Origin: Pseudomonas sp. BGI-2
Lineage (GTDB): Bacteria > Pseudomonadota > Gammaproteobacteria > Pseudomonadales > Pseudomonadaceae
Reading direction: 5' to 3'
DNA length: 64,000 bases
Assembly: GCF_004310295.1 (NCBI RefSeq)
Contig: NZ_SISB01000019.1
Coordinates: 1-64,000 of the forward strand
Under the pieces are notes generated by a model. That model worked only from the letters and a program-made list of their open reading frames with translations. It made no database searches and was not told where the DNA came from. Position 1 is the first letter of the stretch. Each line of letters begins with the position of its first letter. This document shows, one piece after another, positions 34,239 through 40,267 of this stretch. The position numbers and the translations under genes were made by a program.

Positions 34239-35168
34239 TCAGCTCAGCCCGTCGAGCGTAGTCGAGCTGTTCAAGCGCTCGTCCGGCCCGTTCATCACTT
34301 CCTCCAACAGCGTGCGCAATAAGGCCAGCGAGGCTTGTTGCCGTTGCACATCCCGACACACCAATCCGACTTTCAGCGGTACTCGCGGCTCGGTCAGCGG
34401 TTTCCAGAGTAGTTCGTTATTGCCGAGCGCCTTTTGTGAGCGCCCGGGCAGGACGGTGGCCAGCCGGGTGTGGGGCAGGCTGTCGAGAATGCCCGCCATG
34501 TTGTTCAGTTCCGCCTGCACCTGCGGGCGTCGTCCCAGATTGGCCAGTTGCGTCTGCCAGATCTGCCGCACCTGGAATTCCTCTCCCAGCAACAGCATGG
34601 GCAACTCGGCCGCCTGACTCATCGAGACTTTCTTGAATTCGCGCAGCGGGTGGTCCGCCGGGATTACAAGGGTCAGTTCATCTTCGTACAGCAGGACGCC
34701 ATGCAAACCCGGCTGACGGGGCGGCAGGTAGCTGATGCCGATGTCGAGGGAGCCATTGAGCAGCCGTCGCTCGATTTCCAGGCCCGTCAGTTCATAGATC
34801 TGCACCACCAGATGCGGCTGCGCCTTGCGCACGCGTTCGAGCATCTGCGGCACCAGACTGGTGTGAACCGTCTGCAACACGCCGATGGCCAAGGTGCGTA
34901 ATGCCTGGCCCTTGAAGTTGCCCAGCGCTTCACGTGCCCGTTGCAGGCCATCGAGCAAGGGCAGGGCGTGGTTGTACAAAGTGTGGGCGGCCAGGGTGGG
35001 CAGCAGACGCTTGCTGCTGCGTTCGAACAGGCTCACATCGAGGTTTTGTTCGAGCTGGCGGATCTGCTGGGACAGTGCCGGTTGGGAGATTGAAAGTCGC
35101 TCGGCCGCCCGGCCTACGTGGCCCTCTTCGTAGACCGCGACGAAATAACGCAGTTGCTTGAAATCCAT
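34239..35168 (-). CDS. LysR-type transcriptional regulator
   Basis: 309 residues. The N-terminal winged helix-turn-helix (about 1-60: MDFKQLRYFVAVYEEGHVGR, LSISQPALSQQIRQLEQ) is followed by a linker helix and a periplasmic-binding-protein-like effector domain (about 90-295). It is divergent from the aminotransferase homologue at 35338, the usual arrangement for a LysR regulator and its target. The 169-bp gap contains the direct repeat ATCGAAA at 35181 and 35198, a candidate binding site. The inducer is unknown. Its 3' end faces rsmY. Confidence 0.93.
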   Translation of the reverse strand: MDFKQLRYFVAVYEEGHVGRAAERLSISQPALSQQIRQLEQNLDVSLFERSSKRLLPTLAAHTLYNHALPLLDGLQRAREALGNFKGQALRTLAIGVLQTVHTSLVPQMLERVRKAQPHLVVQIYELTGLEIERRLLNGSLDIGISYLPPRQPGLHGVLLYEDELTLVIPADHPLREFKKVSMSQAAELPMLLLGEEFQVRQIWQTQLANLGRRPQVQAELNNMAGILDSLPHTRLATVLPGRSQKALGNNELLWKPLTEPRVPLKVGLVCRDVQRQQASLALLRTLLEEVMNGPDERLNSSTTLDGLS

Positions 35169-35269
35169 AAGGTGCGCTTATCGAAAATGCTGGGAAATCG
35201 AAATGGCTCGACGCCTTGCCTGAGCCTAGTCTAACCGCATTCACAAGGCTTACAGGGCCAGAGCGCACG

Positions 35270-35341
35270 ATGAATACCGTTTACGTCGATGGTGTTTACA
35301 TAGGTAAGGCAAAAAACCTCAAACGAGGTTTGTCCCGATGA
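35270..35341 (+). CDS. Possible 23-residue leader peptide
   Basis: ATG at 35270 opens a 23-codon frame (MNTVYVDGVYIGKAKN and seven more residues) whose TGA overlaps the aminotransferase ATG at 35338 as ATGA. The last third forms a hairpin, AAACCTC / GAGGTTT (35314-35331), whose 3' arm contains the GAGG ribosome site of the downstream gene. Ribosomes translating the leader would open this hairpin, so a coupling or attenuation role is plausible. It may equally be chance; no family recognised. Confidence 0.4.
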   Translation: MNTVYVDGVYIGKAKNLKRGLSR

Positions 35342-36579
35342 ATCTGTTCAACTTGCGTCGCAATCCACCGAGCCTCGATGACTTGGTCGCAGATACTTTC
35401 CAGTCGTCCAGAAGCGACAACCTGTTCAGCGAGTGCCTGATGCCCAGTGTCGAGCGGCCGAAACAGATTTTCGTCCGTGGCCAAGGCTCATGGTTGTGGG
35501 ACAGCGATGACCGCGCTTATCTGGATTTCTCGCAGGGTGGCGGCGCCAATAGCCTGGGCCACAGCCCTTCGGTGCTGGTCAACGCGATCTCGGAACAGGC
35601 TCAATCGGTGATCAACCCCGGTTTTGGTCTGCATAACCGCGGCATGCTCAACCTTGCCGGGCGGCTCGGCACCAGCACCGGCAGTGATCAGGCGTACCTG
35701 CTCAACAGCGGCACCGAAGCCTGTGAAGCAGCGGTCAAACTGGCACGTAAATGGGGTCAATTGCATCGCAGCGGGGCTTCGCGGATCATCGTTGCGAGTA
35801 ACGGCTGCCATGGCCGTAGTCCCGGGACGATTTCCGTGTCGGACTTCCACCACGTTCCCTTCAATGATCTTGCAGCGATGCACGCAGCGGTCGATGCCCG
35901 GACTGTGGCAATCATGCTCGAACCGATCCAGAGCGAAGCCGGGGTGATTCCGGCCACCGAGTCCTACCTCAAGGGTGTCGAACGCCTGTGCCGGGAACTG
36001 GGGATTCTGTTGATCCTTGACGAAGTGCAAACCGGTATCGGTCGCTGCGGCACCTTGCTTGCCGAACAGTCCTGTGGCGTTCGAGCAGATATCGTCGTCC
36101 TCGGCGAAGGGCTTGGCGGTGGCGTGCCATTGGCCGCGTTGCTGGCGCGAGGCAAGGCCTGCTGTTTCGAGGTGGGCGAACTGACGGGCACTCATCATGG
36201 CAATGCGCTGATGACGGCTGCCGGTCTTGCTGTGCTCAACACTATTCAGGACAAGGGTTTTCTCGACCATGTGGGCGAAACCGGCCAGCACCTGCGCGAA
36301 GGCCTGAGTCGTTTGGCCCATCGCTATGGGCACGGCGAGTTGCGCGGTCAAGGGCTGCTCTGGGGACTGACCCTGTCCGACGATTCGGCTGATGCCGTGG
36401 TCAAGTCAGCGTTGTACGAAGGCTTGTTACTTAACGCCCCGCAACCCGATTGCCTGCGCTTTACCCCGGCCCTCACCGTCAGCAACGCCAACATCGACGA
36501 AATGCTCCTGCGCCTGTCCCGCGCCTTTTCCCGCGTACGCACCGCACAAATGCAGTGCCGCAAAGGGATTGCGGTCTGA
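35338..36579 (+). CDS. Class III aminotransferase homologue with the PLP lysine replaced
   Basis: 413 residues, similar to ArgD/acetylornithine-type class III aminotransferases. It has LLNSGTEACEAAVKLAR (phosphate site), ILDEVQTGIGR (Asp228 contacting the PLP ring nitrogen) and THHGNALMTAAGLAVL. The motif that normally reads xKxLGGGxP is LGEGLGGGVP: residue 257, codon GAA at 36106-36108, is Glu where the Schiff-base Lys should be. A single A-to-G change would explain it. Either the protein is not a transaminase, or the allele is inactive or misread. The start follows GAGG nine bases away inside a hairpin. It is divergent from a LysR gene and ends at a terminator. Confidence 0.88.
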   Translation: MNLFNLRRNPPSLDDLVADTFQSSRSDNLFSECLMPSVERPKQIFVRGQGSWLWDSDDRAYLDFSQGGGANSLGHSPSVLVNAISEQAQSVINPGFGLHNRGMLNLAGRLGTSTGSDQAYLLNSGTEACEAAVKLARKWGQLHRSGASRIIVASNGCHGRSPGTISVSDFHHVPFNDLAAMHAAVDARTVAIMLEPIQSEAGVIPATESYLKGVERLCRELGILLILDEVQTGIGRCGTLLAEQSCGVRADIVVLGEGLGGGVPLAALLARGKACCFEVGELTGTHHGNALMTAAGLAVLNTIQDKGFLDHVGETGQHLREGLSRLAHRYGHGELRGQGLLWGLTLSDDSADAVVKSALYEGLLLNAPQPDCLRFTPALTVSNANIDEMLLRLSRAFSRVRTAQMQCRKGIAV

Positions 36580-36786: not shown

Positions 36787-36945
36787 ATGGATTTAATTCG
36801 CATCATCATTGCCATTCTGTTGCCGCCACTGGGTGTGTTTCTGCAGGTCGGTTTCGCCGGCGCGTTCTGGCTGAATATTCTGCTGACACTGTGCGGGTAC
36901 ATTCCGGGGATCGTGCATGCGGTGTACATCATTGCCAAGCGCTGA
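36787..36945 (+). CDS. YqaE/Pmp3 family small membrane protein
   Basis: 52 residues with two membrane helices (about 3-23 and 27-48) and the Pmp3 signature LLPPLGVFLQVG and CGYIPGIVHAVYII. Pmp3-like proteolipids influence membrane potential under salt or cold stress in yeast and plants; the bacterial role is unproven. AGGAGC eight bases upstream marks the ATG. The frame open further upstream contains the previous terminator and is not coding. A REPIN follows. Confidence 0.9.
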   Translation: MDLIRIIIAILLPPLGVFLQVGFAGAFWLNILLTLCGYIPGIVHAVYIIAKR

Positions 36946-37052: not shown

Positions 37053-38879
37053 TCAGCTTGCTAGCTCGATCACCCGCCGATAAAACAACCACTCCTGCTC
37101 CAGCGCATGGGCCTGATTCCCGGCCTTGCGAAAGCCATGACGTTCGTCCGCGTAGTAATGCGCGTCAACCAGTATGCCGTTGTCCTGTAGCGCCTTGACC
37201 ATGTCGCGAGTCTGTTGCGGCACCACCACGGCATCCAGCTCGCCCTGAAAGAAAATCACCGGAACGCTAATGTTGCTCGCATGCAGCAACGGTGTGCGCG
37301 CGGCGTAGCGATCGGCGTCCTGTAGCGGATCGCCAATCAGCCAATCCAGATAATCGCCTTCGAACTTATGGGTCGCCCGGCCCAGTGCAACGGGATCGCT
37401 GACACCGTAAAGGCTGGCGCCGGCGCGGAAGACTTGGTGAAAGGCCAACGCACAAAGGGTGGTGTAACCACCGGCACTGCCGCCGCGAATAAACGCCTTG
37501 TCGCCGTCGATCAAGCCTCGTTCTGTGAGATGCGCGACTACGGCGCAGGCGTCCTCCACGTCGAACTCGCCCCAACTTAAATGCAGCGCCTGGCGATAAG
37601 CCCGGCCATAACCACTGCTGCCGCGGTAGTTGAGATCGGCCACGGCGAAGCCGCGTTGCGCCCAGTACTGAATACGCGGATCAAGCATCGGGTAGCAGGC
37701 GGAGGTCGGGCCGCCGTGGATGAACACCACCAGCGGTGGTTTCGCATTGCCGGTCATAGCCGGATAGAAGAAGCCATGGGCCTCGGCCGTACCACTGGGA
37801 TAACGCAGGGTTTGCGGAACGCTGATCTGCCCGGCGGGTAACGGTGCAATCCCGCCAGCCAATACCTTGACCTGCCGGGTATCGCGGTCGATGGCAATGA
37901 CCGCCGAAGAACTGACCGGCGATGCCGCGATGCAGTAAATGTATTGTTCATCGAGCGCGAGATGGCGAAAGCGGCTGTAATCGCCGGTGAAATCTTCAGC
38001 GTCGTCACCGCAAAGTGCCAATTTGCCAAACCCGCCTTCGGTCCAACTGGCCAGGTAGCTGCCTTTACCAAGCGGCAACCACGTGCAGCCACCCAACTGC
38101 CACGGCGCTGGCCCATGATCAGCGGCGGCACCCGTCAATGGGCTCAGGCCCTCTGCGGATTCCACCCAAGGCTGCCAGTAGCCGCCGCGATCCGTCAGGC
38201 AAAACAGTTGGCCGCCGCCATCGAAACGAGGTTGCTGCAGCGACTCCTGAATCCCCTCGCCAGCCACACAACGCGGCCGAGCAAAGCCTCCACCGTTCTG
38301 GTGTTCGGCAACCATCAGGCGAGTCGCGGTCCATGGCTGATCCGGGCGGCTCCATTCGATCCACGCCAGTCGTTGCGAGTCAGGACTCAACGTCGGCGCG
38401 GCATAGAAATCGGCGCCTTCGGCCAGCAGATGACGCCTGCCATCAGCCACATCGATCGCGACCAGACGATGCCGGTCACGGTTCTCTTCAACGGCGAGTA
38501 CCTGGCCATTGGAAAACTGCAGATCGCCGTAGCGGCATTCCCCTGAAGTCATCACCTCAGGCGTCTCGCCCGCCAGCGATTGCCGATAGAGTTGTTGATC
38601 TGCTTCGTTGACGAAAACAATCCCGTCATCGGTCAGACAAAACGCGCCACCGCCATATTCGTACACTCGACTGCGCACGCTGAAGCCTGTTGGCGTCAGA
38701 CAGCGGGTCTGGCCGTCGCGCCAATGCCAGATCCTGCAGGCAGCATCCTCGGGTCGGTATTCGTTCCAGAACAGGCCATGCTTGCCGACCAGCAATTCGG
38801 CGAAGTCGATACCGGCCGCGACGGCCCGGGAGGCGCTGAAGGGTTCAGCGTTTAGCGATGAGTCGTGAATTTCGTTCAT
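37053..38879 (-). CDS. Prolyl-oligopeptidase (S9) family peptidase of the pqq cluster
   Basis: 608 residues: an N-terminal beta-propeller (about 40-350) and C-terminal alpha/beta-hydrolase domain. The triad is visible as Ser468 in GGSAGGYTT, Asp549 in [10 protein letters not shown] and His581 in DERHGFRK. It is probably a cytoplasmic dipeptidyl/oligopeptidase. Its ATG lies inside pqqE (35-bp overlap) without a clear ribosome site, so it is the last gene of pqqBCDE and translationally coupled. The equivalent gene in P. fluorescens B16 was named pqqM; whether it trims PqqA is unproven. Confidence 0.88.
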
Positions 38880-40020
38880 TGCGAAAGGCCAGTTGTTCGA
38901 TGGTCTGGGTCGCGTGCTCGGCTTCTTCGCGGGCCTTGAGAATCACGCCGTGATGTTCCGACTTGCTGCACACCGGGTCGGCATTGCTCGCGTCACCCGT
39001 GAGCATGAACGCCTGGCAACGGCAGCCGCCGAAGTCTTTTTCTTTCTCATCGCAGGAACGGCACGGCTCGGGCATCCAGTCGTAACCGCGAAAACGGTTG
39101 AAGCCAAACGAGTCGTACCAGATGTGCTGCATGCTGTGGTCGCGCACGTTGGGAAACTGCACCGGCATCTGTCGGGCACCGTGACACGGCAGGGCGGTTC
39201 CGTCCGGCGTCACTGTCAGAAAGATGCTGCCCCAGCCGTTCATACAGGCTTTCGGGCGTTCTTCGTAATAGTCCGGGGTGACGAAAATCAGTTTGCACGG
39301 GTGCCCTTCGGCTTCGAGTTTGGCGCGGTATTCGTTGGTGATGCGTTCGGCGCGGACCAGTTGTTCCTGGGTCGGCAACAGACCGACCCGATTGAGCTGC
39401 GCCCAACCGTAAAACTGGCAAGTGGCGAGTTCCACAAAGTCCGCCTCAAGGGCGATGCACAACTCAATGATCCGGTCGATCTTGTCGATGTTGTGCCGAT
39501 GGGTCACGAAATTCAGCACCATCGGATAGCCGTGGGCTTTCACTGCACGAGCCATTTCCAGCTTCTGCGCGAAGGCTTTTTTCGAGCCGGCCAGCAAGTT
39601 ATTCACTTGCTCGTCGCTGGCCTGAAAACTGATTTGGATGTGGTCCAGGCCGGCCTTCTTGAAGTCGCTGATTTTCTGCTCGGTCAGGCCGATGCCCGAG
39701 GTGATCAGGTTGGTGTAGAAACCCAGCTTGCGCGCCTCGGCGATCAGCTCGGCGAGGTCCTGGCGCACCAGCGGTTCACCACCGGAAAAGCCCAGCTGGG
39801 CGGCGCCCATCTCCCGCGCTTCGCGGAACACCTTGATCCACTGTTCGGTGCTCAGTTCTTTACCTTGCTCGGCAAAGTCCAGCGGGTTGGAGCAGTACGG
39901 GCATTGCAGCGGGCAGCGATACGTCAGCTCGGCCAGCAGCCACAAGGGCAGGCCGATTTCCGGTTTTGGCGGTAACTTGTCTGACGCGAAATCAGGCAAG
40001 TTCGATCCAGTGCTGAGCAC
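38845..40020 (-). CDS. pqqE: PqqA peptide cyclase (radical SAM)
   Basis: 391 residues. It joins Glu and Tyr side chains of the PqqA peptide with help from PqqD. The radical-SAM cluster is C36-x3-C40-x2-C43 (RCPLQCPYC). C-terminal auxiliary clusters of the SPASM type use cysteines in [26 protein letters not shown] and [10 protein letters not shown]. The start is GTG at 40020 with GGAGGT five bases upstream, inside pqqD (29-bp overlap). A longer open frame to 40110 is the antisense-like low-quality N-terminus and was rejected. Confidence 0.96.
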
Positions 40021-40267
40021 GGGCGACCTCCATGAATTGCTCGATGTCTTCACCGAGCTCGGGCACGCCGGGGAACTGCGCGTCCAGTTCGGCGATGATC
40101 GCCGCGACATCGCGTTCTCCGTCGATCAAACCGCCGATCAGCGCGGCGCTTTCATTGAGTTTGATCATGCCTTCCGGGTAGAGCAGCACATGGCCTTTCT
40201 GCGCCGGTTCGTACTGGTAGCGGTAGCCCTGACGCCAGGTCGGGGTCTTGCTGCGATCAAAACTCAT
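39992..40267 (-). CDS. pqqD: PQQ biosynthesis peptide chaperone
   Basis: 91 residues, RRE-type PqqD fold. It binds the PqqA precursor peptide and presents it to the radical SAM enzyme PqqE. Conserved pieces are [31 protein letters not shown] and [18 protein letters not shown] in shortened form across the helices. The ATG overlaps the pqqC stop by 4 bp (ATGA) and the 3' end overlaps pqqE, so the genes are tightly coupled. Confidence 0.96.

Follow-up and report, generated by a model that had tools for sequence, protein, structure and literature searches.

The window analysed here, a 64,000-nucleotide stretch of the Pseudomonas sp. BGI-2 genome (6,267,352 bases in 106 contigs), encodes a class III aminotransferase homologue (35338-36579, forward strand) in which glutamate stands at the position of the Schiff-base lysine. 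From comparison of its sequence with those of its relatives, we consider this protein of 413 residues to be, on balance, probably a retained pseudo-aminotransferase, which would not transaminate via an internal aldimine and would have a non-catalytic or ligand-binding role. Within this single orthologous family, the lysine appears to have been lost on several separate branches.

PF00202 is the sole Pfam family in the protein (268.3 bits against a gathering cut-off of 30.5), which places it in this homology family. From 36100 on the forward strand, the gene reads CTC GGC GAA GGG CTT GGC GGT GGC GTG CCA, translated as LGEGLGGGVP, and the codon GAA at 36106-36108 specifies Glu257. In three phmmer alignments, Glu257 was aligned with the lysine of solved acetylornithine/succinylornithine aminotransferases; the sequence and the alignments thus agree with the earlier note, which had placed a glutamate at the Schiff-base lysine position. 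Without this lysine, which a functional PLP-dependent class III aminotransferase carries, an internal aldimine cannot form. The protein has eight lysines (42, 134, 138, 212, 273, 306, 356, and 409), and none of them falls in the Schiff-base column, so that the possibility raised in the note of another lysine at the PLP site was rejected. Lys-bearing orthologues also have lysine at the positions of these eight, in varying number. Against NCBIfam, the protein stayed under the curated cut-off of all 25 top-scoring families out of 69, including those for acetylornithine aminotransferase (PRK03715, the best, 392.3 of 568; TIGR00707, 310.3 of 410.05). A family-based label such as 'acetylornithine-type aminotransferase' would be misleading for the Lys-less species.

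An AlphaFold2 model computed from 19 sequences had a mean pLDDT of 80.1, with values below 50 at residues 1-36, 161-164 (near the deletion described below), and 411-413. Its best Foldseek matches were acetylornithine/succinylornithine-type aminotransferases (2ord, 4jev, and 4adb) with TMq of 0.83-0.84 (0.84 for 2ord). The class III fold is predicted to be kept by this model, whose alignment consists mostly of Lys-bearing relatives and which cannot show cofactor binding.

Much of the PLP pocket is kept in the window protein. Gly125-Thr126 (35710-35715), which we take to be the phosphate-binding motif, Asp228 (36019-36021), presumably the partner of the PLP ring nitrogen, and Thr285 (36190-36192), presumably a phosphate contact from the other subunit, are all present on the forward strand, as are His158-Gly159-Arg160, E195, E200, E229, V230, Q231, G288, N289, and Arg374 (36457-36459), which we assume to be the substrate-carboxylate arginine. 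The claim of the note that all other PLP-site motifs are kept held for G125, T126, H158-G159-R160, D228, Q231, T285, and R374, but not for two features, namely the position of the ring-stacking aromatic residue, occupied by Cys157 in the segment Cys157-His158-Gly159-Arg160 (35806-35817, forward strand), and a stretch of about 14 residues that is missing after HGR. The residue before HGR was Cys in 144 of the 162 distinct orthologous rows compared and Phe in 10. Since most Lys-bearing rows also have Cys, Cys157 (codon at 35806-35808) is by itself no marker of the Lys-less proteins; the Lys-bearing members of the clade with this Cys may or may not be normal aminotransferases.

Further pocket residues beyond those of the window protein have gone in the other Lys-less members. 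L009 has E229D, Q231H, and T285A; L054 has T126R and H158P; and L144 has T126R, H158L, G159D, and T285I. T126R is present also in Lys-bearing L118. L028, L211, and L203 have lost most of the cofactor contacts with their frames still open, and five of the other Lys-less members have Ala or Ile in place of Thr285. The pocket change in L279 is Q231L; its A126 and S285 are frequent among Lys rows as well. We also counted departures at 84 sites that hardly vary among 88 long-loop Lys rows and are the same in six outgroup rows. There were 4, 6, 5, 6, and 12 departures in the five rows with Glu and 2 to 3 in each of the seven loop-less Lys rows. The long-loop Lys rows averaged 0.3 and did not exceed 4; in the loop-less rows, part of the count is the deletion itself. 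No row of the 162 has lost D228 or E195, and each of the eight Lys-less members retains R374. Their persistence, even in L028, L211, and L203, would fit a structural need and the binding of a carboxylate ligand alike.

The sister loci L211 and L203 (genomes G112 and G163) have lost nearly the whole PLP site and retain 414-residue open frames with LysR adjoining; as pseudo-enzymes, they are more clear-cut than the window gene. Separately, Lys-bearing L019 has R374S, and Lys-bearing L022, on a long branch, has HGN for HGR.

The missing stretch, present in most orthologues, maps to the D169/F170 junction (35842-35847, forward strand). The spacing from Arg160 to VPFND is 12 residues in the window protein, 25 or 26 in 134 of the 162 rows, 26 in the six outgroup rows, and 21 in the Ala and Gly rows. 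A spacing of 14 residues or less was found in 13 rows, six of them Lys-less (L001, which is the window protein, L009, L054, L144, L028, and L279) and seven with Lys (L118, L042, L130, L053, L017, L018, and L172). Among the latter, L017, L018, L172, and L053 lie outside the short-loop group of the window protein and are also without the loop after HGR. Tabulated by rows, short loop against Lys loss gave counts of 6, 7, 2, and 146, a strong association (Fisher p 2e-6). The tree provided four independent pairs, and in about 2.5 of them Lys loss coincided with the short loop, with no pair showing the opposite; this is not significant. Because the independent pairs on the tree are too few, it is only suggested that loop shrinkage preceded Lys loss.

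At the Schiff-base position, the 162 rows carried Lys in 154, Glu in five, and Ala, Gly, and Thr in one each. These eight Lys-less rows do not represent a frequency, as scores and the non-Lys patterns guided part of the row selection; the 162 rows include four from outside the genus (L031, L055, L057, and L060, also present in an earlier set of 106 rows) and one fragment (L284). Besides the window protein, Glu in the same motif was found in L009 (G005, 89% identical), L054, L144 (G249), and L028 (G022, 60%). L054, from P. mucoides P154a, comes from another collection and is an additional Glu case. The note had asked whether Glu is fixed among the orthologues: it is not, as most rows keep Lys, including 92%-identical L118 of G070. 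Its alternative of an error or private mutation at the GAA codon found no support either, for independent genomes show the same change, as do separate branches of the tree.

Within a draw of 398 genomes of the genus, an orthologue was found in 251 at E <= 1e-130, and none was found at that threshold in 147. At the laxer E <= 1e-60, an orthologue was found in 23 of 36 genus genomes, with no stop in any. The pattern GE-G-(L/F)-GGGVP matched six of the 398 genomes, of which four carry the orthologue (G000, G005, G249, and G022); the matches in G019 and G118 were rejected as orthologues, being located elsewhere with no convincing similarity to the window protein. A broader pattern, which accepted at the lysine site every codon with a first base other than A and so misses non-Lys codons such as those of Thr, matched 33 places in 32 of the 398 genomes (draw without G000). 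Three of these places were the known Glu genomes, and two were new orthologues, L211 (G112, Ala) and L203 (G163, Gly), with 53% identity. The remaining places were rejected as other genes by position or by tblastn (19 loci), or because only paralogues were present; six genomes of this broad-pattern set hold only 39-41% paralogues, located elsewhere. Another 30 genomes, many with low-scoring orthologues, yielded L279 (G239) with Thr at the lysine site, bringing the Lys-less genomes known in the draw to seven (G000, G005, G249, G022, G112, G163, and G239). In L279, the Thr is accompanied by Q231L and the short loop; its terminal branch is long, and its genome is 86% complete. A search of 76 genomes for close relatives of L028 found none above 64%. 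None of the 162 rows contained an internal stop, and all eight Lys-less frames are open; most of the searches were run at E <= 1e-75 to 1e-130, which would hide badly broken copies.

To count the losses, we mapped the residue at the lysine site onto trees. With the pocket columns removed, the Lys label needed six changes on the 161-row tree, of which starred branches force five, and the Glu label needed three changes on the 106-row protein tree; the placement of L028 and other long branches is unsure in both trees. When aminotransferase and LysR codons were analysed with the trait columns removed, placing the four Glu rows from the short-loop group in one clade cost 216.9 log-likelihood units; the AU test rejected this arrangement (p = 4e-10), and hence a single Glu origin in that group. 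L001, L009, and L118 formed a trichotomy, for which AU p values were 0.29 (L001+L009) and 0.46 (L009+L118); L001 and L009 may have lost Lys in one event or in two. L054 and L144 were sisters at 100/100 in the codon tree and were split in the quick 161-row protein tree. The change counts do not separate Lys loss from regain, so the five forced changes are losses unless Lys returned. Reversion of Glu to Lys is conceivable, and regain once other contacts are gone would seem unlikely.

The selection analysis indicates that the gene remains constrained. Codon models were fitted to 18 taxa on a single, DNA-based topology. A single omega was estimated at 0.111 (lnL -9482.06), and two classes gave 0.209 for Glu branches and 0.099 for the others (lnL -9470.68), branch omegas that blend the time before and after Lys loss. 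Fixing the Glu-branch omega at 1 fitted far worse (lnL -9530.49), and twice the lnL difference was 22.8 for relaxation and 119.6 against neutrality. With three classes, omega was 0.091 for long-loop branches, 0.131 for short-loop Lys branches, and 0.205 for Glu branches (lnL -9467.53). Amino-acid change is therefore constrained, with roughly double the freedom seen in relatives that have Lys. At the level of the family, a catalytic residue has been lost and the protein is still constrained.

By pairwise dN/dS, L054/L144, which most likely split after Lys loss, gave 0.215 (0.139-0.334), and L001/L009 gave 0.197 (0.130-0.287); since L001 and L009 may have lost Lys separately, the post-loss constraint on the window gene itself is not isolated by the latter value. 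L211/L203 gave 0.273 (0.192-0.387), and their common wrecked pocket makes it almost certain that the pair diverged after its loss. Five long-loop Lys pairs ranged from 0.094 to 0.147, with intervals overlapping those of the Glu pairs. Among 340 Lys pairs from related loci (L229-L255) with dS of 0.2-1.0, the median was 0.10 and the range 0.03-0.23, within which the L054/L144 value falls. The LysR genes of the same genomes gave 0.014 and 0.057 for the Glu pairs, the latter being the highest of 14, and 0.010 to 0.046 for the others. These low LysR values (0.010-0.057) indicate that relaxation is largely confined to the aminotransferase gene, where constraint persists.

A LysR-type regulator gene (34239-35168, reverse strand; PF03466 and PF00126) is divergent from the aminotransferase gene and appears to be its partner. 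The window LysR query had a match in all 12 tested genomes carrying the aminotransferase gene and in none of 12 tested genomes without it at E <= 1e-80. LysR adjoins the gene in all eight Lys-less members, including the Ala, Gly, and Thr genomes. The intergenic region (35169-35337) is similar across the short-loop group, in Glu- and Lys-bearing members alike, and in the neighbours of that group; in a comparison of 22 loci, L022, L023, and L044 had other DNA there, and L028 and L015 were more diverged. In G006 and G007, about 800 bases separate the two genes. An acyl-CoA dehydrogenase gene lies upstream in the window, and downstream are a gene for a 52-residue Pmp3-family membrane protein (36787-36945) and an S9 prolyl-oligopeptidase-family gene (37053-38879), which overlaps a radical SAM/SPASM gene (38845-40110) that is probably pqqE-like. 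By eye, the acyl-CoA dehydrogenase end, LysR, the aminotransferase gene, and a Pmp3-like gene follow in matching order at L028. In P. putida KT2440, the gene in the aminotransferase position is presumably PP_0372. Large fold changes of PP_0372 under zinc are given in the available part of a published study (PMC6066579).

Considered as a class, the proposal in the note of a catalytically altered enzyme or a regulatory pseudo-enzyme is supported by the open, constrained frames and the retained LysR of the Lys-less copies; a regulatory role or a loss of PLP binding would be a further assumption. We favour a succession of steps: the ring-stacking aromatic residue would have been replaced first, in most of the clade, the loop after HGR would next have shrunk in most lines, and other pocket residues would then have drifted and Lys been lost. 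The gene would still be expressed, and its retained role would rest on the folded protein, perhaps on ligand binding via E195, D228, and R374, and not on transamination. In the simplest candidate roles, the protein would bind a carboxylate metabolite or pair with one of the proteins of the LysR-linked unit. The window protein, with approximately the best-kept of the Lys-less pockets, would represent an early stage and may still bind PLP, as most contacts are kept; L028, L211, and L203 would represent a late stage. A more specific version is a tentative and rather doubtful one: parallel loss of the PLP lysine, followed by loss of the contacts, would have produced a cofactor-free, carboxylate-binding partner of LysR that senses or buffers a ligand, with the loop-less Lys relatives as intermediates.

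The main rival to a retained pseudo-aminotransferase is decay of a dispensable enzyme, which would by now be useless in several lineages and heading towards a pseudogene, K257E being among the first hits. An omega on the Glu branches of about twice the background would look the same in early decay, the Glu rows depart 4 to 12 times at the 84 conserved sites, and the gene is dispensable at the genus level, judging from the 147 of 398 genomes without an orthologue at E <= 1e-130. However, the absence of internal stops from all 162 rows, the dN/dS of 0.21 to 0.27 in the post-loss pairs with intervals well under 1, and the retention of LysR all speak against it, and we regard decay as possible though unlikely. 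Next comes altered chemistry, in which PLP or PMP would be bound non-covalently and Glu (or nothing) would serve as acid/base, like the histidine of PMP-dependent sugar 3-dehydratases. In its favour, G125, T126, D228, Q231, T285, and R374 of the window protein are kept, five of the eight Lys-less rows have Glu, and His stands in for the catalytic Lys of E1, ColD, and SpnQ, as described in the accessible portion of PMC8987622. On the other hand, the cofactor contacts vary among the Glu members, four of the five having lost some (T126R, H158P/L, Q231H, T285A/I, and more), and other lines have Ala, Gly, or Thr. Moreover, one A-to-G transition turns either Lys codon, AAA or AAG, into a Glu codon, and Glu recurrence may reflect mutation; we therefore gave the predominance of Glu little weight as a sign of selection. 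We consider such chemistry improbable.

Class III active sites sit at the dimer interface, and T285, thought to reach the site of the partner, is kept in the window protein. The protein might accordingly be imagined as a pseudo-subunit whose partner in a mixed dimer is a Lys-bearing class III aminotransferase, and at least two Lys-bearing paralogues (L002 and L003) occur in the same genome. LCB1, which pairs with LCB2, offers a precedent in the part of PMC3794620 available. The identity of L002 and L003 is, however, just 38-42%, and both are on other contigs; the substitution of T285 in the five other Lys-less members likewise weighs against such a dimer, which we would rate as improbable. We also rejected the gain of a second aminotransferase in the Glu genomes as an explanation for the loss of Lys; an L003-type paralogue was present in 11 of 12 genomes, Lys-bearing and Lys-less alike. 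As for sequencing or assembly error, a single-base difference from AAA would produce GAA, but the same residue is found in independent genomes and in the other collection, and G005 is a single-contig assembly; the chance of such an error is practically negligible.

The window protein shares with the acetylornithine/succinylornithine aminotransferases (PF00202) the fold, the order of motifs, Asp228, Arg374, and the best PDB sequence matches, and differs from them in the absence of the Schiff-base Lys, in Cys at the stacking position, and in the missing stretch after HGR. The label given by the earlier note, a PA0530-type Pseudomonas class III aminotransferase, likens the two by label only; transcriptome papers give PA0530 as a class III or acetylornithine aminotransferase in the passages available, which do not establish its function (PMC3195088 and PMC9431628). 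Among the matches listed in open-licence PubMed Central, no paper dealt with Lys-less class III aminotransferases in Pseudomonas. To judge from the passages available, yeast ScAlt2 is similarly an aminotransferase homologue long kept without its ancestral activity (PMC5960717), and LCB1 of serine palmitoyltransferase is a retained PLP-enzyme homologue without the PLP lysine (PMC3794620). LCB1 partners a Lys-bearing close homologue according to the same passages, whereas none adjoins the window gene. The Lys of an aminotransferase-like fold has also been replaced in the 3-dehydratases E1, ColD, and SpnQ; these have His and are PMP-dependent in the portion of PMC8987622 consulted, in contrast to the Glu, Ala, Gly, or Thr found here with cofactor contacts eroding in most members. 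In these passages, none of ScAlt2, LCB1, and E1/ColD/SpnQ shows repeated loss within a single orthologous family. The altered PLP-enzyme relatives compared are thus single cases, whereas the one orthologous family described here holds Lys-bearing, loop-less Lys-bearing, and several Lys-less lines. With these three states in one family and the window protein so close to Lys-bearing L118, both the order of the steps and the retained function are directly testable.
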